Below, piece after piece: positions 2,997-16,458 of a stretch of DNA of 64,000 nucleotides. The stretch's first letter is position 1, and each line of letters opens with the position of its first letter. This DNA comes from Ilyomonas limi. Its GTDB lineage: Bacteria; Bacteroidota; Bacteroidia; Chitinophagales; Chitinophagaceae. A model generated the notes under the pieces. It ran no database searches, was not told where the DNA came from, and saw only the letters and a program-made list of their open reading frames with translations. Location of the stretch: contig NZ_SZQL01000005.1 in assembly GCF_005233845.1 (NCBI RefSeq), positions 186,001 to 250,000 on the forward strand. The letters run 5' to 3'. The position numbers and the translations under genes are program-made.

Positions 2997-5138
2997 TTAC
3001 TCTCCTGCAGGCAATCCCAATGCTTTTTCCATGGGCTTGATGCTGGGTGCATGACCTCTGAAATTGCGGAACATTTTGTTGTAATCTTCGGTGTTGCCGC
3101 GCGATAAAATCATATCTCTGAAACGCTGACCGTTAGCGCTCGTTAAGCCACCATTTTCTTCAAACCATGAATACGCATCTTCTTCCAGCATTTTTGTCCA
3201 TAGGTACGCATAATAGCCGGCAGCATAACCATTGCTCCAGATGTGCAAAAAGTAAGAAGAACGATAGCGTGGCGGCACTTGCGGCAAAGCCAGCCCGGTA
3301 GCTTGCAAAGCAGCTAATTCAAAAGAATCTGCATTGTTTATTGCATTGCTGTCTTTGGTGGTATGCCACTGCATATCGAGCGAAGCGTCAGCCAGCAGCT
3401 CGGTCAGGCTGTACCCCTGGTTAAACGTGCCGGCACTTTTTATCTTATCCACCAAACTTTGTGGTATGGGTTCGCCGGTTTTATAATGCACTGCATAATG
3501 CTTCAATACTGTTGGATACAATGCCCAATGCTCATTGAACTGCGAGGGAAACTCCACAAAATCGCGGGCAACATTAGTGCCTGAAAGCGTAGGATATTGT
3601 TGGTTGCCAAACATACCATGCAGTGCATGACCAAACTCGTGAAACATGGTAGTTACATCATCAAAAGAGATGAGGGCAGGCTCACCGGGCGCAGGCTTTG
3701 TAAAATTGCATATATTATAAATTACCGGTTTGGTGTTCATCAGTTTTGTTTGCTCCACCAGGTTGCTCATCCATGCGCCACCCGATTTATTATCCCGCTT
3801 ATAATAATCGCCGTAAAACAAAGCCAATGGTTTTCCATCTTTGTCAAACACTTCAAACACACGTACATCAGGCTGCCATACAGGAAGGTCATGGCGCTCT
3901 TTAAAGGTTAAACCGTAGAGTTGATTAGCAGCATAAAACACACCATCTTCTAGTACTTTATTCAGTTCAAAATACGGCTTTATCTCATTTTCATCGAGGT
4001 TGTATTTTTCCTTGCGCACCTGCTCGGCATAATAGTTCCAGTCCCAGGGCATCAGTGTAATACTGTCGCCCCGCTTATCAATTTGTGTTTGTATCTCGGC
4101 TGCTTCGCCTTTGGCTTTTGCGGTAGCGGCCGGCACTAATTGTGCAAAGAATTGTGCAACTGCTTCGGGTGTTTGCGCCATTTGGTCCTGCAGTTTCCAG
4201 GCGGCATAATTGGGAAAGCCCATTAGTTTTGCTTTTTGTTCGCGAATGTCTGCAAGCCGCAAAATAGTAGAACGTGTATCGTTGGAATCGCCATGCTCTG
4301 CACGCAGCCAGGATGCCTGAAACAATTGCGCTCTGGTGGCGCGGTCATCAAGCGATTGCAGCGGTGGCTGCTGCGTGGTGTTTTGCAATGGAATGAGCCA
4401 TTTGCCGGTAAGATTAGCTGCTTTTGCATTTTGTGCATACGCCGCCTTTTCGGTGGCAGAGAGTCCTTTTAATTTAGATGAATCCTCAATTATTAAGGCA
4501 CTGTTTTTAGCGGCATTCAGGAGTTGATTGGTAAATTTTGCGCTTAGTCCGGCTTCTTCTTTATTAAGTTTTTTCAGTTTTGTTTTATCTTCTTCCGATA
4601 GCTTGGCACCTGCCAAAACAAACTCCAGATATTGGTACTCGACTAACCGGTTTGATTCGGAATCTAAATGCAGTTTTTCTCTGTTTTGATAAATGGTTTC
4701 AATGCGCTTGAACAATTTCGGATTAAGGTAAATAGCATCCTGGTTGGCAGCCAGTTGCGGTGCCATTTCCTCCTGTAGCTGCTGCAAGGTATCGTTGGTA
4801 TTAGCGCCGGTAACAAGATTGAACACGTGGTTTGCGCGACTCAATAATTGACCCGATTTTTCCAATGCGACCAATGTATTTTCAAATGTAGGCGCAGCCG
4901 GATTGTTGGCAATTTTAGCTATCTCTTCCTGCTGGGCTTTCATGCCGGCTTCGAGTGCGGGCTTATAATCGGTAATGGTGATTTTATTGAAGGGCGGCGC
5001 TGCAAAGGGCAGCTTGCTGGGTGCGCTGAATGGGTTGGAAGCTGGCAAAGCAGCAGCATTGTTTTGCAGCACTGCTTTGTTTTGTGCAAATAAGTTCAAG
5101 GCAAATACATTTAGTAGAACGACAAATATGGTTTTCAT
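2997..5138 (-). CDS. dcp: secreted M3 family metallopeptidase (peptidyl-dipeptidase Dcp type)
   Basis: 713 residues from ATG 5138, chosen because it begins with a clean signal peptide (MKTIFVVLLNVFALNLFAQ); the frame is open 40 codons further upstream but that stretch does not look coding. The zinc motif HEFGH lies at residues 500-504, and the third ligand is Glu 529 in DFVEFPSQ, as in M3 peptidases. Length and the C-terminal GYAAGYYAYLWTKMLEEDAY segment match peptidyl-dipeptidase Dcp and oligopeptidase A relatives. It probably removes dipeptides from peptide C-termini in the periplasm; the exact specificity is inferred. It is monocistronic, convergent with the acidic protein gene and divergent from the kinase locus. 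Confidence 0.92.
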   Translation of the reverse strand: MKTIFVVLLNVFALNLFAQNKAVLQNNAAALPASNPFSAPSKLPFAAPPFNKITITDYKPALEAGMKAQQEEIAKIANNPAAPTFENTLVALEKSGQLLSRANHVFNLVTGANTNDTLQQLQEEMAPQLAANQDAIYLNPKLFKRIETIYQNREKLHLDSESNRLVEYQYLEFVLAGAKLSEEDKTKLKKLNKEEAGLSAKFTNQLLNAAKNSALIIEDSSKLKGLSATEKAAYAQNAKAANLTGKWLIPLQNTTQQPPLQSLDDRATRAQLFQASWLRAEHGDSNDTRSTILRLADIREQKAKLMGFPNYAAWKLQDQMAQTPEAVAQFFAQLVPAATAKAKGEAAEIQTQIDKRGDSITLMPWDWNYYAEQVRKEKYNLDENEIKPYFELNKVLEDGVFYAANQLYGLTFKERHDLPVWQPDVRVFEVFDKDGKPLALFYGDYYKRDNKSGGAWMSNLVEQTKLMNTKPVIYNICNFTKPAPGEPALISFDDVTTMFHEFGHALHGMFGNQQYPTLSGTNVARDFVEFPSQFNEHWALYPTVLKHYAVHYKTGEPIPQSLVDKIKSAGTFNQGYSLTELLADASLDMQWHTTKDSNAINNADSFELAALQATGLALPQVPPRYRSSYFLHIWSNGYAAGYYAYLWTKMLEEDAYSWFEENGGLTSANGQRFRDMILSRGNTEDYNKMFRNFRGHAPSIKPMEKALGLPAGE

Positions 5139-5367
5139 TTCACACGGTTTATTCAGGTTTGGAAGATAGGTATTCTTTAGAGAAAATAAAATGCAGGAGT
5201 TTATTAAGAAACGGCTTTGGGAAAGAGGATTCTTGAATTCCGTTCTGATAAAATACAAAACTTTTCATGATTTGTATGCTATCTGTCTGTATCTTTCTTT
5301 ATGGAAATTGTACTGCATACCTTGCCATATTTTGCTACACTATCTATAGAATACGAAACAGCATTGG

Positions 5368-5472
5368 TCGTTAGGTTACGACATCATAAAAGCTCATGAT
5401 AGAGAAATAAAAGTGGAAAGTAAGGAAGGTGAAGGAAGTGCGTTTTTAATTCAATTACCAATAACAACCTAA
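5368..5472 (+). pseudogene. remnant of a histidine kinase C-terminus
   Basis: Translated in the frame ending at TAA 5470-5472, this short stretch gives SLGYDIIKAHDREIKVES followed by KEGEGSAFLIQLPITT. It is nearly the same as the last residues of the two kinases downstream (SLSYDIVKAHGGEIKVES and KEGEGTALIIQLPA). The frame is closed by TAG at 5347-5349, and no ATPase domain precedes it. It is therefore a decayed or deleted third kinase copy, left 9 bases before the start of the first intact kinase. The GG of the G2-type loop has become DR, which also fits loss of function. Confidence 0.8.
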
Positions 5473-5481
5473 GTCCTTCAA

Positions 5482-8400
5482 ATGAATAAAATTTTTGTAT
5501 TGCTCATTATTATCTGCTTTTCATTTGCTATTAACAGTTGTAATGAAAGGAACAGAAACATCCCTTTACCGAAATATGTAATTCAATCTAAAACCATCGC
5601 ACTCCATTGGTCAGCGCCGCAAAAAATACGGTTTTATGATACTTCCAAATTAATCGTTACAACAAAAAAGTTAGACTTTGATGCTTTGCCCGAAGAAGTG
5701 TATGATAGCACGGTAGCGCAGCCCTTCTCGAAAAAGCCAGTAGTAACTCATTTTAATTGGGACAGTTTGCCACGTGCAGCTTTTAATTATAATACCCTTC
5801 CATCAAAACCATTTCATTTTAAAACCTATGCAGTTACGCCTGAAATTATAAAAGCAGGCCCACTGGTTTTTAAACAAATGACAAACCAGCCTTTTTTTGA
5901 AATCACCAATGCTGAGGATATAATAGGCAAACAACAAGTTGATTGCACTTTAGAAGACAAAGCAGGTTTTATATGGATTGCTTCAAGAAACGGATTGTTC
6001 CGGTACGATGGCGAGAACCTGGTCCGGTATCTGAAAGCGCGTCTTCAGATTAATAGTTTAAGGGAAGATGATAAAGGACAAATATGGGTATCTTTCTTCA
6101 AATACAGTTCCGGCGAAAGAGGTCTCTTTGTTTTAAATACCGAAAAAAATGTATTGCAGGAGTTAGATGCTAAGCAGATGCAGATGGAAGGCTCAATTCC
6201 ATGGGATTTTGCATTTGATAGCTATGGTAAGCTATGGGTAGAAACGCATAGCGGCATGCGCATTATTGACCTACATAAAAATGTTATAAAAAGCTTTACA
6301 GTAAAGCAAGGTTTATCAGCCGATACTGCTAGAAGCTTGTTACAAGATGAAGAAAAAAATATGTGGATTACAACCAACAACGGGCTGGATATTATAAATG
6401 CAAAGCAGAATACGATAAGTTATTTTAAAAAAGAAAATGGATTGCCCTCTGATACAACGTGGAGGATTGCAAAGGATGAAGAAAAAAGAATATGGGTAGA
6501 TGATGCTCATGGTGGATTGTCTGTTATCGACAGGCACGCAGGAACTATTAACCACCTTGATTGGACTACCACGAATTTTAAACCAACCCTCCAAACTTTC
6601 TATGTCTATAATATGATGGATGATGGCAACGGAAATATGCTCGTTGATTATTTAGACTATAGTACACGTACCCATGATTTAAAGATAATCAACCCGAAAA
6701 ATAATACGACAAGGGAAATACGCTTTCCTTCTGAGGAAGGATGGATTGGTTCTTCTTTATTGGATAAGAACGGACAAATCTGGTTAAGCAATTACGGTAA
6801 TCTGGAGATTTTAAATAAAAATGGTTACGATACACACCATGCAGGCAATACCAATATTACTGCACTTGCGGAGGATGCCCGTAACAATATTTGGATTTCC
6901 GACGTAGGTAAAGGAATTAAAATTTTAAACCCTGTTACCGGCAAAGCAAAGATTTTAAATAAAGCGGCAGGTTTAAGTAACGATACGCTGGGTGTGAAAT
7001 GCATTGATGGAAAAATATATGTAGCCACACCAAGCGGGCTCGACATCATTGATTCGGGTTATACAACAATAACTTATCTGGGTAAAATGCCAACAGCTTA
7101 TCCTGTACTTCACAAGGGCAATATATGGCTGCAAAACTTTAGAACTGGTAGCTTTGAAGCATTTAATCTGGAAAAGAAACTCCGTTTTCATGTGGATATT
7201 TCCCTGGGTAAACAAGACGAAAATTTGCAACAAATTCAGGATAAAGAAGCAAACATATTACTCTGTACCGGGTCGAATGTATTGGGTGTAATAGATAGTG
7301 GTAGTGCGTACATTCGATACACAGATACTGTCTTATCTGCCGAAAGCACGGTCTTCAAACCGATGTGTTCTGACACATTGGGCAATACATGGATAGCAAT
7401 TGATACCGTTCTCTTCAAAATAAACAAAAGAAGAGATTCCGTTACCATGTTTTCACCACAAAACGGCTTGTTTAATTCCTACATCAAATCCCTTAATGAA
7501 TATAACGGTTGTATTTATTCCGGCACCTTTGCCGGTGTAAATATCATTACGCCGCCAAATCCGTTTACCGGTAATACATGGTGCATACAATCTTTAGGAA
7601 AGAATGAAGGCTTTAGTGCCAATTTGGGTGAATTTCAAAATGATGGCATTAGCCATAATGGGATCTATTGGTGGGTAGGTAATGGAGGCATCACCTTTTT
7701 GCCTCCCCTGCAATTAAATAAACCTGTTCTCTCCAAAACGTATATAACAAGTGTTGATGTGTATAATGAGCCGCAACATTTTTCAAACAAGCGGGGCGAA
7801 TATACCGTAACGGGAGATACCCTGTGGGATGCCAATACGAACAATTACTATCTCAAGGGGCAAAAACTGAATATGGTCTCAAATGCTTATGGAAATAAAA
7901 TGAAGTGGGACAGCATTACCGGACCTTACAACATGCCGGTAAATCTTACCATGCCTTATGACATGAATAATTTACAATTTCATTTTGTTCAATCGAATGA
8001 AGGCACCGGCGATGCGGAGTACAGGTATTACCTCGAAGGATATGATAGTGCATGGAGCGAGACAACTACCAACACTTCGAGCAGAAATTACTTTGAGCTC
8101 CCTGCAGGAAAATATACTTTTAAAGTGAGCTCCCTAAATAGTTATGAGTGGAGCAAGCCCGCCGAATTTAGTTTCACGATAGCGAGTCCCTGGTGGAAAA
8201 GCTGGTGGGCATTTGTGATTTATTTTGTTTTAATAGCATTGATATATGCGGCGTTTCGCTCCTTCAATTTAAAACGTCAGAACAAACTGCTTGAGGTAAA
8301 GGTGAACCAACGGACAGCGCAGTTAAACCAGTCACTTAAGGAATTGAAATCCACCCAGGCACAACTCATTCAATCAGAAAAAATGGCTTCACTCGGGGAA

Positions 8401-9147
8401 CTTACTGCAGGCATTGCACACGAGATACAAAACCCATTGAACTTCGTTAATAATTTTTCTGAAGTAAATGTTGAGTTGATCGAAGAATTAAAAAGTGAAA
8501 GGTCAAAAGTCAAACATGAAAACGGAGAACCGGAAGATGAAATATTGAATGATATAGAACAAAACCTTCAAAAAATTCTTCATCACGGCAAACGTGCGGA
8601 TAGCATTGTGAAAGGCATGCTGCAACACTCCAGGGCAAACTCTGGTAAGAAGGAGTTGACTGAGATCAATGCTTTGGTGGATGAGTGTGTACGCTTAAGC
8701 TATCACGGCATGAGAGCAAAGAGTAAAGAGTTTAATGCAACAATTAATATCAATTTAGATGAAAGTATAGGTAGAACAGATGTTGTGCCGCAGGATATCA
8801 GCAGGGTATTGCTTAACTTGCTGAATAATGCTTTCTATGCTGTGGATGAGAAAAAGAAGAGCCCCCAATCCCTAAAGGGGAGTGAAGGATACGAGCCAAC
8901 TGTTTCCGTGTGTACAAAAAGACTGGATGGCAAAGTAGAGATACAAGTAAAAGATAATGGCAATGGCATTTCTCGGAATATAGTAGATAAAATATTTCAA
9001 CCATTCTTTACTACCAAACCTACAGGACAGGGCACAGGGCTGGGTTTATCTTTAAGCTACGATATTGTAAAAGCACATGGCGGAGAGATAAAGGTAGAAA
9101 GCAAAGAAGGAGAAGGAACAGCACTTATTATTCAATTGCCTGCTTAA
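5482..9147 (+). CDS. two-component sensor histidine kinase with periplasmic beta-propeller
   Basis: 1221 residues. A lipoprotein-like signal ends at Cys 20 (AINSC). Residues about 150-770 carry two-component propeller repeats, each with the form D..G.IW....GL, then a Y_Y_Y-type domain near 800-900 (YRYYLEGYDSAWSE), a membrane helix at about 907-925, a coiled coil, the kinase H-box with His 980 (GELTAGIAHEIQNPLNF), and an HATPase domain with N, G1 (DNGNG) and G2 (GTGLGLSLS) boxes. It has no receiver or DNA-binding domain, unlike classical hybrid systems, and no response regulator is encoded nearby. Residues 1127-1136 are an insertion made by a dispersed repeat. Substrate sensing by the propeller is inferred. 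Confidence 0.9.
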   Translation: MNKIFVLLIIICFSFAINSCNERNRNIPLPKYVIQSKTIALHWSAPQKIRFYDTSKLIVTTKKLDFDALPEEVYDSTVAQPFSKKPVVTHFNWDSLPRAAFNYNTLPSKPFHFKTYAVTPEIIKAGPLVFKQMTNQPFFEITNAEDIIGKQQVDCTLEDKAGFIWIASRNGLFRYDGENLVRYLKARLQINSLREDDKGQIWVSFFKYSSGERGLFVLNTEKNVLQELDAKQMQMEGSIPWDFAFDSYGKLWVETHSGMRIIDLHKNVIKSFTVKQGLSADTARSLLQDEEKNMWITTNNGLDIINAKQNTISYFKKENGLPSDTTWRIAKDEEKRIWVDDAHGGLSVIDRHAGTINHLDWTTTNFKPTLQTFYVYNMMDDGNGNMLVDYLDYSTRTHDLKIINPKNNTTREIRFPSEEGWIGSSLLDKNGQIWLSNYGNLEILNKNGYDTHHAGNTNITALAEDARNNIWISDVGKGIKILNPVTGKAKILNKAAGLSNDTLGVKCIDGKIYVATPSGLDIIDSGYTTITYLGKMPTAYPVLHKGNIWLQNFRTGSFEAFNLEKKLRFHVDISLGKQDENLQQIQDKEANILLCTGSNVLGVIDSGSAYIRYTDTVLSAESTVFKPMCSDTLGNTWIAIDTVLFKINKRRDSVTMFSPQNGLFNSYIKSLNEYNGCIYSGTFAGVNIITPPNPFTGNTWCIQSLGKNEGFSANLGEFQNDGISHNGIYWWVGNGGITFLPPLQLNKPVLSKTYITSVDVYNEPQHFSNKRGEYTVTGDTLWDANTNNYYLKGQKLNMVSNAYGNKMKWDSITGPYNMPVNLTMPYDMNNLQFHFVQSNEGTGDAEYRYYLEGYDSAWSETTTNTSSRNYFELPAGKYTFKVSSLNSYEWSKPAEFSFTIASPWWKSWWAFVIYFVLIALIYAAFRSFNLKRQNKLLEVKVNQRTAQLNQSLKELKSTQAQLIQSEKMASLGELTAGIAHEIQNPLNFVNNFSEVNVELIEELKSERSKVKHENGEPEDEILNDIEQNLQKILHHGKRADSIVKGMLQHSRANSGKKELTEINALVDECVRLSYHGMRAKSKEFNATININLDESIGRTDVVPQDISRVLLNLLNNAFYAVDEKKKSPQSLKGSEGYEPTVSVCTKRLDGKVEIQVKDNGNGISRNIVDKIFQPFFTTKPTGQGTGLGLSLSYDIVKAHGGEIKVESKEGEGTALIIQLPA
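8861..8889 (+). repeat. CCCCTAAAGGGG-type repeat inside the kinase gene
   Basis: The core CCCTAAAGGGGAGTGAAGG, preceded by GCCCCCAAT, matches the elements found in the ribosomal operon spacers (for example at 49761-49790). Here it is translated in frame as SPQSLKGSEG between the N box and the next strand of the ATPase domain. The paralogous kinase has only QLNGT at this point. Confidence 0.75.
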
Positions 9148-9278: not shown

Positions 9279-12200
9279 ATGTTAAAGTTATTTGCCCTGA
9301 ATAAAATGCCTAAACTTCTGCTGTTATTATGTTTGATCGCCTTAAAGTTAAATGCACAGCCACTAAAGATTACAGATTTTGTATTGTTTGGCGGCAAAAA
9401 TGACGGTCCCTTAACCGGTATTACAACACCCGGCTCTCCGGGATTTGCTGTAAATATTGCATCGGCAGCTACTATTACTAATGGACGTATTGGCAGTTAC
9501 AATCTTATAAAATCTACAGGTAATACTACCCTTAGCTGCAGCCTTAACAGTGGTGGGATTATCAATCTTGCAAATGGTGCTAAAATAAATGGAAGTATCA
9601 CTGCTCAAAATCTATATAATGCAACGGGCAATATTCTTCAAATGGGTTCCAATGCTTATGTGAAATATAACATTGACGTGAATGGTAATATATTCATTAG
9701 CAAGGGAACAGTCGGAGGCAATGTAACACATCCGCCCGGCACTATTTATTCGGGGCCGAAGCCCGGCGGAGCGGAATATAAAAAGATACCCAATATTCCA
9801 ACACTTCCGGATCTGCCTGCTGTTACCAGTTTTGTTTCCAAAGGAACAGATGATGTAACTGCTACGCGTACCATAACGCCCGGCTATTACCGCAACATGA
9901 AATTGTCCGGCAATAAAAAAGTAACATTTAGTGGCCCGGGCGATTATTACTTTACATCCATCCATAACACAAACAGCAACAAACTGGAGTTCGATTTTAA
10001 AGGCACAGCAACTGGTAATATTAGAATTTATGTGGAAGGCGATGTGGATCTTGATAAGGCGACTTCCAGTTTAAAAAATGGCGGTGCGGCATCCAGAATA
10101 TATCTTGAAGTACATGGCAACGGCAGCACAAACGTTGTTAATACTTTCTCCTTTACTGTTTCTAATGGCGCTTCTAACACATCTGCATGGCTGGGAACGG
10201 TGTGGGCACCTTACGCCGGTATTAATATAGGTTCGGGTACAGGTACAAGTTATATAACCGGCGCATTGTGGAGTGCTACGCAGGTAAATATACAAGCTGG
10301 CTCCAATATAAATTTTGAACCGTTTGCCGGATTTGATGCAGGCGATGGTCTTATTGTTCCCGGTTATACACCTCCTGCTGCCGGAAAATCTGATGATCTG
10401 ATTGGACCGGAACTGGCGTCGCTTTGCCAGATGTTTACTAACGGCATTATACCATCGCCTGAGATTTACCGTATCATTGACCAGAGTGTACTAATTGAAG
10501 TGGTTGTTAAGGCTGGTAATTACAACAATGCCTTGAGCAAACTACGGGATCAGTATGGCATGACCGGCTTTGTGGATAACGGTCCAAATAGTTTGATCAT
10601 AACCGGCAAAATACCCATAAGTCAGCTCTGTCTGTTAAATAGTGATGCTGAAATGAAGAGCTATGTGAATTCGTGCAGGCCGTTGTATCCGCCCATTACC
10701 AGTACAGGTCTTGTAACCACAGGCGGTGACACTTCGGTTCATGCTGATGTTGTTCGTAATGCCTTTCATTTAACAGGTGCAGGCATTAAGGTGGGAGTTC
10801 TTTCAGATGGCTACAACACTATTCCCGGTAACCCTGCAAATACCGATATTATAAACGGAGATCTGCCTGGTCCTGGCAATCCTGTTCATCCGACTCCGGT
10901 AGATGTTTTAGCAGATTATCCTTATGGAAGGTCAACAGATGAAGGCAGGGCAATGCTGCAAAATGTACATGATATGGCACCCGAAGCTACACTTGCCTTT
11001 AGAACCGGCTTTATAAGCGAGGGCGATTTTGCACAAGGCATTAACCAACTGCAGCGTGCCGGCTGCAAAGTAATAGCCGACGATATTACTTATATTACAA
11101 CTCCGTTCTTCAAAGACGGGCTTGCTGCGCGGGCTGTAAATAGTGTAAAAACGCTCGGCGTATCGTACTTTTCTGCGGCGGGTAATTTTGGCTCCAAATC
11201 TTACGAAGCTATATTTAGCCCTGTAGCTGCACCGGCAGGCCTTACGGGTGAAGCACACAATTTTGGCGGCGGGGATATTTTTCAAAACGATTCTTTACAG
11301 GCGGGCAGCTATACTATTGTAATGCAATGGGAAGATTCTATTTATTCGCTTGGCCAAGGTGGCGCACAAAACGATTTTGATATTTATCTGACGAATGATG
11401 ACGGCAGTATTTTATTTGGTATGAACAGGACAAATTTTGGTGCTGATCCTATTGAAGTGCTGCCCTTTATTGTAAAGGCCAATACGCGTACAAACATTAT
11501 GATTGTGCGTGCTGCAGGTACTACCCCCAACGTAAGAATTAAGTTTATCGTATATCGCGGCGAACTGAAGTTTAATGAGTTTGCAACCGGTACCTCTACC
11601 CTGGTGGGGCAGGCCAATGCAGAGGGTGCTATGGCTGTTGCTGCTGCCCGTTATACCCGCACGCCTGCTTACGGTGTTAACCCGGCTTTAATTGAAACAT
11701 TTTCATCCACAGGAGGTGCACCTGTATATGGTATAGTAAGACATAAACCAGACTTCACAGCGCCTGATGGTGGTAACAGCACGGTCAATTTTGGTTCTTT
11801 AGACATTGAAGGTGACGGTGTGCCCAATTTCTTTGGCACCTCTGCTGCTGCTCCTCATGCTGCAGGCGTGGCAGCCTTGATATTGGAAGGTAAAAAGCGT
11901 TTTTATGATAAAGTGCTCCAGCCGGATTCTGTAAGGATTATTTTAAGTAATACTGCATTGGACATGACTTCCACTCCCGGCTTTGATAACCTCAGTGGTT
12001 ATGGTTTAATACAAGCTGATGCGGCTATTGGTAGTTTTGCAGCGCCTACTCCCGAGCTGGATAGTTTGCTGGTTTCTAACACTTCGTCAGCAACTCCGGG
12101 CAAAAATGCAGTTACAGTAACCTTAAAGGGAAAATATTTTCGTACTAATACAACTGTTACAGTGAGAGGCGTGCCAGTAACTACCCAAATCCTCAATTCA

Positions 12201-14207
12201 ACACTGGCAACTGCTGTGATTCCTCCATTTATGGGCAATCCGCCGGTGCAGATGTACACAGCTCCTGTTACGCCAAGCAAGTTGGATGGACAATATTCTC
12301 AGCCGCTTTATTTCTTTAGCCCTATAAAAAAGAAGATAACAGTAACGGCTGATAACAAAACAAAAAAATACGGAGAAAAACTGCCGGACTTCACGTCAAC
12401 AATCCTCGTAGATGGTGCGCCATTGGCTGCTTCGGGCCTGTCTGCTGCTGATTTAAACTTAGACTCTATTGTGTACACAACGCCTGCAACAAACAGCAGC
12501 AATGTTGGCTTGTACTATATACGTCCTTCATTTAAACCATTGACTGCTGATGATTCCTTGGCGTTTGAATTATACGATTACACCTTTAAGGACGGCATAC
12601 TTTTCAACAATAAAATGCCATTGCTGGTAACACCAAGTGATACTATACTTACTTATGGCGATAAAATAAGCGGCTTTCATTATACCTACACGTATGGCGA
12701 TTCATTGATACCGGTTGCTGAAAAAGCAGGCTTTTTAAATAATATCAGCACTGTTCATCATACAACAGTTAACAATAATGTAGTAGCATTTGTGGATGGA
12801 AAAAGCATTATTAACGGAAGAACATTGACCGATGCAGACCTGCTGAACATGGGCGTAATGGCAAGTGCAAAATCCATAATCAATGCACGCAATATTATCA
12901 ATGCCAAATCTATCATCAATGGTGTGGTGGTAAATGATACTACTAAGGTTGTTGACCTTGCTGTACAATCCATATATAACTATCAGTTTGATTCATCCGC
13001 TTCTCCGCTTGTAAATGCGAAAAGTATAGTAAATGCGAGAGCTATTATCAATGCAAAATCTATAATAAACGGTACAGCAGAAGTAAATGCCAAAAGTATA
13101 ATTAATGGCAGCAGTATTTTAAACAGTAATGCTGTTGGCGATACGAGTAATCAAAATGTTGTAGTAATTGTAGATGAAACGGATGTTCCGGCAGCGACAA
13201 ATGTGGTGTCTGATTTTACATCAGTTAATATGGTAACAGGCGTAACGGCAGGAGATTTCAGGATTGTTCCGGCTGCCATGATCTCTGAAAATTTTGAAAT
13301 AAGATATGGACTTGGCAATTTAAAAATTTTACCGGCGCCACTTTCTGTAAAGGCAAACGATACATTAATGTTTCAGGGCGGGGTGGTACCCACATTCACT
13401 TCAACAATAAAAGGTCTTAAAAACAGCGATACGTTGCTGAGTGGGCCGGTATATACCCTTAATCCGGTTTATATTGGCAATGCAGGCACTTATGCAATCA
13501 TCCCTTCCGGTGTTGAGCTTGATTGTCCTGAATGTTATATTACTACTTATACGCAGGGAACATTGTATGTAAATCCTAAAGGTAAAAATGCCAAAAACCT
13601 TAAGCCTTATCTCGTGTGTGTTGATACATTAATAAATGACCCAACGGGGTTGAAATATATAGCAACATACGGATGCAGAAACGACAACGCTACAATGCTG
13701 TATGTGCCTACGGGTCCAAACAATTATTTGTCGGGTGTTGCTGCTGCTACTGCTGTGGGCAATTTACCTGAGTACTTCTTACCGGGCGGTGATAATACTT
13801 TTCAGATAAAATTTAATGGACAAAAACTAAGATGGACCGTTAAAACATACAACGTTTATCAATACACGGCTACCGCGCAGGATGCAAGTTCTACGTCTGC
13901 AAGATGTAAGAAGGCAACAAGTAATAAGCTGGCAGGCAGTGTATCTCCTGAGGCAGCCGGCACAACCGCAACAGTATCGCCCAATCCTTCTAAAGGCAGG
14001 TTTATAATCTCTACAGGTAAGGGAATTATTTCTGACAGGGATGTGCATATAACAGATGTAACCGGCAAAATATACATCCCAAGCATTAGTAAGCGCTCAT
14101 TGGGAAATCTTGAAATTGAGTTGCCTGCAGGTGCATCGAGTGGGGTTTATTTTATAAGAGTTAAGATTGATAATAATTATAAGGTTTTCAAGGTTGTGAA
14201 GTTGTAA
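9279..14207 (+). CDS. T9SS-secreted subtilase-like protein with MBG domains and NAKSII repeats
   Basis: 1642 residues. Signal peptide to about residue 26 (ALKLNAQ). Residues 27-350 form a repetitive beta-rich region resembling ice-binding or polymer-forming adhesin folds. Residues about 490-920 are a subtilase-type domain with Asp 510 (VGVLSDGYN), Glu 555 (STDEGRAML) in place of the usual histidine, Asn 636 (SAAGN) and Ser 855 (FGTSAAAPHAAG), so an acid triad as in S53-like members of the fold is likely. An IPT-like segment and MBG domains follow (ADNKTKKYGEKLPDF), the second interrupted by NAKSII repeats at 1174-1282. The last 80 residues are a T9SS sorting domain. It is a probable surface or secreted protease lying between two kinases. 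Confidence 0.85.
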   Translation: MLKLFALNKMPKLLLLLCLIALKLNAQPLKITDFVLFGGKNDGPLTGITTPGSPGFAVNIASAATITNGRIGSYNLIKSTGNTTLSCSLNSGGIINLANGAKINGSITAQNLYNATGNILQMGSNAYVKYNIDVNGNIFISKGTVGGNVTHPPGTIYSGPKPGGAEYKKIPNIPTLPDLPAVTSFVSKGTDDVTATRTITPGYYRNMKLSGNKKVTFSGPGDYYFTSIHNTNSNKLEFDFKGTATGNIRIYVEGDVDLDKATSSLKNGGAASRIYLEVHGNGSTNVVNTFSFTVSNGASNTSAWLGTVWAPYAGINIGSGTGTSYITGALWSATQVNIQAGSNINFEPFAGFDAGDGLIVPGYTPPAAGKSDDLIGPELASLCQMFTNGIIPSPEIYRIIDQSVLIEVVVKAGNYNNALSKLRDQYGMTGFVDNGPNSLIITGKIPISQLCLLNSDAEMKSYVNSCRPLYPPITSTGLVTTGGDTSVHADVVRNAFHLTGAGIKVGVLSDGYNTIPGNPANTDIINGDLPGPGNPVHPTPVDVLADYPYGRSTDEGRAMLQNVHDMAPEATLAFRTGFISEGDFAQGINQLQRAGCKVIADDITYITTPFFKDGLAARAVNSVKTLGVSYFSAAGNFGSKSYEAIFSPVAAPAGLTGEAHNFGGGDIFQNDSLQAGSYTIVMQWEDSIYSLGQGGAQNDFDIYLTNDDGSILFGMNRTNFGADPIEVLPFIVKANTRTNIMIVRAAGTTPNVRIKFIVYRGELKFNEFATGTSTLVGQANAEGAMAVAAARYTRTPAYGVNPALIETFSSTGGAPVYGIVRHKPDFTAPDGGNSTVNFGSLDIEGDGVPNFFGTSAAAPHAAGVAALILEGKKRFYDKVLQPDSVRIILSNTALDMTSTPGFDNLSGYGLIQADAAIGSFAAPTPELDSLLVSNTSSATPGKNAVTVTLKGKYFRTNTTVTVRGVPVTTQILNSTLATAVIPPFMGNPPVQMYTAPVTPSKLDGQYSQPLYFFSPIKKKITVTADNKTKKYGEKLPDFTSTILVDGAPLAASGLSAADLNLDSIVYTTPATNSSNVGLYYIRPSFKPLTADDSLAFELYDYTFKDGILFNNKMPLLVTPSDTILTYGDKISGFHYTYTYGDSLIPVAEKAGFLNNISTVHHTTVNNNVVAFVDGKSIINGRTLTDADLLNMGVMASAKSIINARNIINAKSIINGVVVNDTTKVVDLAVQSIYNYQFDSSASPLVNAKSIVNARAIINAKSIINGTAEVNAKSIINGSSILNSNAVGDTSNQNVVVIVDETDVPAATNVVSDFTSVNMVTGVTAGDFRIVPAAMISENFEIRYGLGNLKILPAPLSVKANDTLMFQGGVVPTFTSTIKGLKNSDTLLSGPVYTLNPVYIGNAGTYAIIPSGVELDCPECYITTYTQGTLYVNPKGKNAKNLKPYLVCVDTLINDPTGLKYIATYGCRNDNATMLYVPTGPNNYLSGVAAATAVGNLPEYFLPGGDNTFQIKFNGQKLRWTVKTYNVYQYTATAQDASSTSARCKKATSNKLAGSVSPEAAGTTATVSPNPSKGRFIISTGKGIISDRDVHITDVTGKIYIPSISKRSLGNLEIELPAGASSGVYFIRVKIDNNYKVFKVVKL
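12801..13130 (+). repeat. in-frame NAKSII/NARxII repeat array
   Basis: This DNA encodes residues about 1174-1282 of the subtilase-like protein. The hexad [KR][SNA]I[IV]N[AG] recurs at least eight times (KSIING, AKSIINA, RNIINA, KSIING, AKSIVNA, RAIINA, KSIING, AKSIING), in blocks separated by 20-30 unrelated residues. The codons differ between copies, so the repeat is kept at the protein level. Confidence 0.75.
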
Positions 14208-14337
14208 TTTATACTTTGCAAGGCAGGGCAAGGCTCCTTATGTCATAAAACAATTTCCATTGGAAAATTTAAAAAAACAGCACAAGTATTTTTGTTTAAC
14301 AACAGGTGATATAAAGCCTGTTGTTTCATTCATTAAA

Positions 14338-16458
14338 ATGATGGCCTGCATTATTTTGGCCTTGCTTTATGCAGCAAAAGGGTATAGCCAGGATGCAGAA
14401 ACTGATAGCCTGCTACAGATAGTAGCCAAAGGAAAGGATGACAGCCTTAAGGTGAATGCGCTTATCAGTCTTACAGTTTCCAACTACCAGTCGTCACCCG
14501 GTAAAGCACTTGAATATGCCAACAAAGCTAAAGACCTTGCTATTAAATTAAACTTTAAAAGTGGTGAAGCGTATGCTTATAAATGGCTGGGTATTATTGA
14601 AAACTATCAGGGCAACTACTACGAAGCCCTGGTTCACTCCAACACATCATTGAATATATTTAAAACCCTGGGAGATAAGGCGGGCACATCGAATCTGCTT
14701 AATAATCTTGGTGCTTTTTATGCAGATAAAGATGAAAATTCCAGAGCTGTTCAATATTATTTGCAAGCACTTGATCTGGCTAAGCAAAGTGGCAACAAAC
14801 TCAGGATTGCAAGTACACTCGGCAATATTGGTGTGATATACTCCAAAAATCCTGCAACAAACGATACGGCGCTTGCTTACTATTTAAAAGCACTGCCTTA
14901 TGCACAGGATATACAAGACAGTGAATCTATCGGAATTATTTATACTAATATTGGTGAAGTATATGCTGTAAAAAAGGATTATAATAAAGCCTACAATTAC
15001 TATAACAAGGCTGTACAAACTTTAGGCAACTCTGCCAGTACAGCCTATACTTACAATGATATAGGTAAATTGTATAAGCAACAGCAGGCATATGATTCGG
15101 CTGATGTTTATTTCGATAAGGCATACACTATAGCGCAGCAAAATAATTCTCCGGTTGATGTAATGCAGGCTTTAATAGGTAAAGGACAACTGCAAATGGC
15201 GCTTAACAAAAATAAGGAAGCTATTGTACTGTTTAATAAAGCGCTTGATATAGGTAAGCCTATCCAATCAACCCCCGAATTAAAAGGCATTTATGAAGGA
15301 CTTTCGGCAGCATATAAAAAAATGAACGACTACGAGCATGCCTTTCTGTTTCAAAGCTTGCTAAACAATTTGTATAACACGGTTAATGAAAGAAAATTAA
15401 ATTTTAATACTGCAACGCTTGAGTACGCAATGGAATTGCAAAAGCAATCCGGAAAAATAGCCATGCTGATGAAAGAAAACGAAATGCAGGAATTAGATCT
15501 TAAAAACGAAAAATTTGCCAGAAATGTATCGCTCGCTGCTTTGGGAGTGCTATTGATTGTTACGATCATGCTGCTGCTTAATATCAATCAAAGAAAAAAG
15601 CTGAACCGGCTGTTATCCATTCAAAAAAGGCAGATAGAAATCCAGAAAACGAATGTGGAAAAAGCACTGATGGAGTTGAAAGCTACGCAATCGCAGCTTA
15701 TTCATTCAGAAAAAATGGCTTCTTTGGGAGAGCTGACTGCTGGCATCGCCCATGAGATACAAAACCCGTTAAATTTCGTGAACAACTTCTCGGAGTTGAA
15801 CAAAGAGCTGATTGATGAGTTAAAAAACGAATTGCTGTTGGATAATAAACAAGAAGCACTGTTGATAGCTGATGACATCAGAGCAAACGAACAAAAAATC
15901 ATGCATCATGGTAAGCGTGCAGACAGCATTGTAAAAGGCATGCTACAGCATTCGCAGGCAAGCAGTGGTAAGAAAGAACTAACAGACATCAATGCTTTGA
16001 TAGATGAAAGCCTGAGATTAAGTTATCATGGATTGAGAGCGAAGGACAAGGCGCTTAATGCAACAATTCACACCAGCTTTGATGCAGGCGTCGGTAAGAT
16101 AAATATTATTCCACAAGACATCAGCAGAGTAATGCTCAACCTGTTCAATAATGCTTTCTATGCTGTAAATGAAAAGAAAAGGCAATTAAATGGAACGTAT
16201 GAGCCTAAGGTTTCAGTGCACACCAAAAAGGAAAATCATAGCATTACTATTACTGTAAAAGACAATGGCAATGGTATTCCACAAAACATTACAGATAAAA
16301 TTTTTCAGCCTTTTTTCACCACCAAACCCGCAGGGCAGGGAACAGGATTAGGATTATCTTTAAGTTATGATATTATCAAAGCGCATGGCGGTGAGATAAA
16401 GGTAGAAAGTACAGAGGGAGAAGGAACAAAGTTTATAATTTATGTGCCATTTGTTTAA
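14338..16458 (+). CDS. sensor histidine kinase with TPR sensor region
   Basis: 706 residues from ATG 14338, chosen because it gives a signal peptide (MMACIILALLYAAKGYSQ); an in-frame TTG at 14260 would add 26 residues. Residues about 30-370 are TPR repeats (for example AYAYKWLGIIENYQGNYYEA and LGAFYADKDENSRAVQYYLQ), predicted periplasmic. A membrane helix at about 397-415 and a coiled coil lead to the H-box with His 472 (GELTAGIAHEIQNPLNF) and an HATPase domain ending EGEGTKFIIYVPFV. The kinase half is very similar to that of the propeller kinase upstream, while the sensors are unrelated. No receiver domain or response regulator is present in the window. Confidence 0.9.
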   Translation: MMACIILALLYAAKGYSQDAETDSLLQIVAKGKDDSLKVNALISLTVSNYQSSPGKALEYANKAKDLAIKLNFKSGEAYAYKWLGIIENYQGNYYEALVHSNTSLNIFKTLGDKAGTSNLLNNLGAFYADKDENSRAVQYYLQALDLAKQSGNKLRIASTLGNIGVIYSKNPATNDTALAYYLKALPYAQDIQDSESIGIIYTNIGEVYAVKKDYNKAYNYYNKAVQTLGNSASTAYTYNDIGKLYKQQQAYDSADVYFDKAYTIAQQNNSPVDVMQALIGKGQLQMALNKNKEAIVLFNKALDIGKPIQSTPELKGIYEGLSAAYKKMNDYEHAFLFQSLLNNLYNTVNERKLNFNTATLEYAMELQKQSGKIAMLMKENEMQELDLKNEKFARNVSLAALGVLLIVTIMLLLNINQRKKLNRLLSIQKRQIEIQKTNVEKALMELKATQSQLIHSEKMASLGELTAGIAHEIQNPLNFVNNFSELNKELIDELKNELLLDNKQEALLIADDIRANEQKIMHHGKRADSIVKGMLQHSQASSGKKELTDINALIDESLRLSYHGLRAKDKALNATIHTSFDAGVGKINIIPQDISRVMLNLFNNAFYAVNEKKRQLNGTYEPKVSVHTKKENHSITITVKDNGNGIPQNITDKIFQPFFTTKPAGQGTGLGLSLSYDIIKAHGGEIKVESTEGEGTKFIIYVPFV

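Follow-up and report, generated by a model that had tools for sequence, protein, structure and literature searches.

Two-component kinases of myxobacteria are known to duplicate and diverge, with indels, frameshift pseudogenes, lineage-specific loss and occasional domain shuffling (PMC4603909). The locus described here resembles that birth-and-death process, in which duplication, indels and frameshifts lead to pseudogenes and loss, and it is a new example of the ordinary birth-and-death of tandem kinases. Unlike the myxobacterial case (PMC4603909), it concerns a Bacteroidota family in tight same-strand arrays and its relic is a 3' stub lying immediately ahead of a kinase that survives. The other relevant group is that of the propeller kinases, which combine Reg_prop (PF07494), Y_Y_Y (PF07495), HisKA (PF00512) and HATPase_c (PF02518) domains. 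The surviving kinase, K1, has all of these domains. The stub matches the end of the K1 HATPase_c domain and, unlike the propeller kinases, keeps only the last ~34 codons. We found no description of kinase 3' stubs of this kind in the part of the literature that our search covered.

The stub lies in a 64,000-nucleotide stretch of Ilyomonas limi DNA, which we analysed as a whole (the window). The features around it are as follows.

2997 to 5138, minus strand: M3-family oligopeptidase (dcp-like), the divergent left neighbour of the stub; its likely start is at 5138.
5324 to 5367, plus strand: possible, badly decayed extension of the stub pseudogene, read in a different frame (PYFATLSIEYETALVV compared with PFFTTKPTGQGTGLGL).
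5368 to 5472, plus strand: stub, probably the 3' end of a histidine kinase gene (HisKA/HATPase_c) that has been lost, encoding SLGYDIIKAHDREIKVESKEGEGSAFLIQLPITT followed by a stop codon.
5482 to 9147, plus strand: K1, a lipoprotein two-component-propeller histidine kinase with Reg_prop, Y_Y_Y and HisKA plus HATPase_c ("lipoprotein" being a label taken from the N-terminus).
9279 to 14207, plus strand: subtilase of family S8, secreted, which carries MBG domains and a Por secretion tail and separates K1 from K2.
14260 to 16458, plus strand: K2, a TPR-type histidine kinase that belongs to the K1 family.

K1 and K2 are thus not adjacent, being separated by the 1642-aa subtilase gene. In the subtilase, a NAKSIINA/G-like peptide motif recurs close to the MBG domains.

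In the window translation, the peptide encoded by codons 5368-5469, with TAA at 5470-5472, is the C-terminal end of a histidine kinase ATP-binding domain. A kinase-module profile of 251 positions, built from 172 intact modules of the window and its relatives, matched it at positions 216-249 in a six-frame search (E 4.7e-9). It was also found by a whole-genome protein search (E 4.7e-8, with 75% identity to the K1 tail) and recovered by a second one at E 2.2e-11, while a nucleotide profile run over 352 nt gave E 4.4e-19 with a match beginning at 5367. A search of a plasmid collection returned no match. The stop codon of the stub is separated from the K1 ATG at 5482 by 9 bp (5473-5481). A preliminary description had reported a third-kinase remnant at 5368-5472, nine bases short of the start of the propeller kinase, and both the in-frame homology and the measured gap bear this out. 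That the similarity is due to chance, or marks the end of an unrelated gene, has nothing but the short length of the stub in its favour. With 102 in-frame bases running to a stop codon, E-values of 4.7e-9 and 4.4e-19 in the two profile searches and a position exactly at a kinase-kinase junction, we regard this explanation as practically negligible; a chance match is ruled out by the E-values, and the similarity of the C-terminal module places the stub in the K1/K2 family beyond chance.

Next, we considered whether the stub could still be functional. Its reading frame spans 40 codons from stop to stop (5350-5469), with no start codon ahead of the match, and no recognisable kinase body is left upstream. 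The second Gly of the HGGE motif, which is Gly in 269 of 269 intact modules, is Arg in the stub. Similarly, the stub has Gly in place of Ser just before YDI, a position at which the 269 modules carry Ser, Ala or Thr and never Gly. The stub is therefore a non-functional relic, with its body missing, no start codon and an invariant Gly replaced, and cannot encode a functional protein. A functional small gene or leader peptide would agree with an open frame of 40 codons that stops 9 bp ahead of K1, and among the other orphan tails some run into the next start codon (gaps of -8 to -1). This is very unlikely, given the absent start codon and the two residue changes, and the tails of other genomes are preceded by unrelated sequences.

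Differences between the stub and K1 number 5, 2 and 15 at codon positions 1, 2 and 3, respectively. Such a predominance of third-position changes indicates that the lost gene diverged while it was functional, as a long-diverged paralogue rather than a fresh copy. A weak similarity, specific to K1, may also continue the kinase pseudogene upstream to ~5324 in another frame. Controls on this segment were equivocal: a K1-specific shuffle gave p of ~0.002, uncorrected, the summed score over six kinases gave p of 0.02, and a general panel of 40 sequences gave no signal of homology upstream of 5367. We consider this extension suggestive only.

We then compared the stub with other kinases at the DNA level. 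Of 60 nt compared, it shares 47 with K1, 50 with a C8 tandem kinase (the highest value within the genome) and 52 with the orphan tail of locus L103, which comes from another genus; the family tails used in this comparison average 45.5. Genome-wide blastn likewise gave the two C8 kinases as the best matches (82-83%). A special similarity of the stub to K1 and K2 is ruled out by these values. The match to the ends of both downstream kinases that had been noted before thus stands as a family match and is not special to them, the stub being no closer to K1 and K2 than to distant family members. The two kinase modules had also been called near-identical; they share 74% DNA identity, and no exact run between them exceeds 20 nt. 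As the stub is nearer to C8 than to either of them, and as long near-identical tracts among stub, K1 and K2 are absent, there is no evidence of recent recombination at this locus, for which an exchange between modules had been suggested as a possibility.

To place the locus among its relatives, we used 81 loci (the window and 80 from contigs of other genomes; 1.3 Mb, 224 full modules). Upstream sequence of 600 bp or more was available for 190 family kinases. For 121 of these, an intact kinase of the family lies no more than 500 bp upstream, with a median gap of 9 bp, the same as the gap between the stub and K1. An orphan tail lies upstream of 12 (window included), and 57 have neither. One long array comprises ~17-18 family kinases on one strand over roughly 50 kb (L213-L215; G027:C1:1978000-2032000), with no orphan tail detected. 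For the 27 K1-type orthologues with enough upstream sequence, the upstream neighbour is an intact kinase in 16 (for example, at 12 bp in L057 and 52 bp in L143), a remnant in four and nothing recognisable in seven. An intact gene is thus found at the equivalent place among K1 orthologues of other genera. Besides the window stub, the remnants are a tail alone, 153 bp upstream, in L103, a frameshifted module (positions 150-236) in L140 and a truncated kinase in L144. When a tree was built from K1-type sensor regions, the window grouped with L103, L140 and L142 (SH-aLRT 99). No member of this clade keeps the upstream kinase, and the upstream kinases of the two K1 orthologues closest to that of the window are decayed. 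The expansion and loss of tandem kinases that had been suggested for this locus are supported by these observations.

Cumulatively, homology, position, the missing start codon, the change at an invariant residue, and the intact and decayed kinases at orthologous loci are observed features of the stub, and the view of it as what is left of a vanished tandem kinase has good support from the frequency of intact kinases directly upstream in the family. Very probably, it is the pseudogene of a third kinase of the same family, once directly upstream of K1 and lost by deletion. A HisKA/HATPase_c kinase would originally have stood directly ahead of K1 in tight tandem, and a deletion, presumably in place, would have removed its sensor and all of the catalytic module except for the final ~34 codons. 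The stub would now be part of the K1 5' leader and make no kinase, and its persistence may be owed to its position immediately before the K1 start. The K1 orthologues are only ~34-36% identical to K1, yet the stubs of the window and L103 agree at 52 of 60 DNA positions. This similarity is too high for a single ancient neutral relic, so that separate, more recent losses appear likelier for the two stubs.

An alternative to loss in place is that the stub came along with K1, copied or moved from an array elsewhere with the left breakpoint in the tail of the preceding kinase. No kinase would then ever have been lost at the window site, and the stub would still be the end of another kinase. The peptidase-K1 adjacency was not seen in 18 relatives, so the flank is not conserved, the stub has its best in-genome matches in the C8 tandem kinases, and the sequence to its left has no above-chance match elsewhere in the genome, all of which would suit such a transfer. 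Loss in place also has to accommodate the seven of 27 K1 orthologues without a trace of an upstream kinase. On the other hand, K1 is not close to any C8 kinase (module DNA identity 70-75%), so that any move must be old, and orthologues of other genera have decayed kinases directly upstream in differing neighbourhoods, as expected from loss in place. We consider a transfer of K1 unlikely, and the deletion of a tandem kinase remains our preferred explanation.

The preliminary description had also proposed an exchange of sensor regions between kinases. In a 38-module tree, modules from one genome tend to cluster (over all genomes, 16 changes against 26.9 in shuffles, with none of 200 shuffles as low). 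One K1-type module (genome G283) is nested in its own array (support 99), though its sensor is orthologous to other K1-type sensors. This grouping by genome fits within-genome homogenisation or sensor swapping over time, making sensor exchange plausible for the family over evolutionary time, with no event demonstrated here. It is background to the recombination idea and not evidence of an event at the window locus.

Gain and loss of neighbouring sensor genes are ordinary, whereas scars of one kind are unusually many in the K1/K2 kinase family. We collected 31 orphan tails that were neither at an edge nor frameshifted; they come from the 81 loci and from further loci chosen with the help of a one-per-genus sample (60 family genomes). 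Along the 251-position profile, 22 of them start at 212-221, a slightly generous count as some non-palindromic starts (e.g. L130 and L207) lie further upstream in the DNA, beyond stops or frameshifts; eight start at 178-211, none earlier and one later. The window stub, starting at 216, falls within the peak. About 13 of the 31 tails join directly onto the end of a ~110-bp palindromic repeat (TTGTCTGAATCACGGATT...AATCCGTGATTCAGACAA), which begins at a kinase stop codon. Its copies occur mainly at kinase clusters in several of the genomes searched, and in these nearly all copies of the end motif are in clusters.

A precise fusion of the tail with the right end of the repeat was seen at L087:4430-4745, L104:4162-4344, L104:8934-9119, L129:5805-5981, L074:479-640, L208 (G045:C1:875218-875825), L210 and L205. 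In L087, the repeat forms tandem copies together with a tail ORF of 36 codons, the spacers being nearly identical and the tails clearly diverged. Dense direct arrays of repeat end motifs lie between kinase genes at L095:7026-8000 and 11422-12118 (G298:C94), and all listed end-motif copies of G298 are on contig C94. At L208, complement 9826-9216 (G045:C1:875361-875711), a GxxExxY gene (TIGR04256/PF13366, PD-(D/E)XK) sits inside the palindrome, between a kinase stop codon and an orphan tail. Degraded GxxExxY pieces follow kinases in L074 and L079. In L221 (complement, ~1500-2060 of the reverse complement; G295:C19), a palindrome of the same type with a GxxExxY gene directly follows the stop codon of a gene that does not encode a kinase.

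We asked whether the window stub could likewise be the footprint of a site-specific event, in which a palindrome or GxxExxY-type element recurrently splits off the last ~30 codons. The clustering of the tail starts with none before 178, the tails abutting a repeat that is found mainly at kinase clusters, and the arrangement in G045 all speak for such an event in the family. At the window locus, a palindrome and a GxxExxY element were both sought and neither was found: the terminal inverted repeat (...TGATTCAGACA) is absent directly before the stub, the end motif occurs at about background level only in the I. limi genome, and a search of the window revealed no GxxExxY gene. Moreover, no kinase was present within the ~1.5 kb flanks of 30 other GxxExxY loci. 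Given the missing palindrome and the background-level motif, a site-specific origin of the stub is kept as an improbable reading. Equally doubtful is the more specific conjecture that kinases are recut at the SLSYDI codons (G2 region) in a palindrome-linked manner that leaves a 30-codon tail, the window stub then being an old case whose repeat has decayed.

On its own, the stub is a record of one lost sensor kinase. Together with the comparison across genomes, it points to three properties of these arrays: 1) tandem arrays of Bacteroidota turn over gene by gene, leaving a recognisable 3' scar; 2) in tandem sensor-kinase arrays, module sequences track the genome and not the sensor; and 3) the clustered left ends of the scars are an unexplained, testable regularity. 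Such 3' scars can be counted as a measure of kinase turnover.
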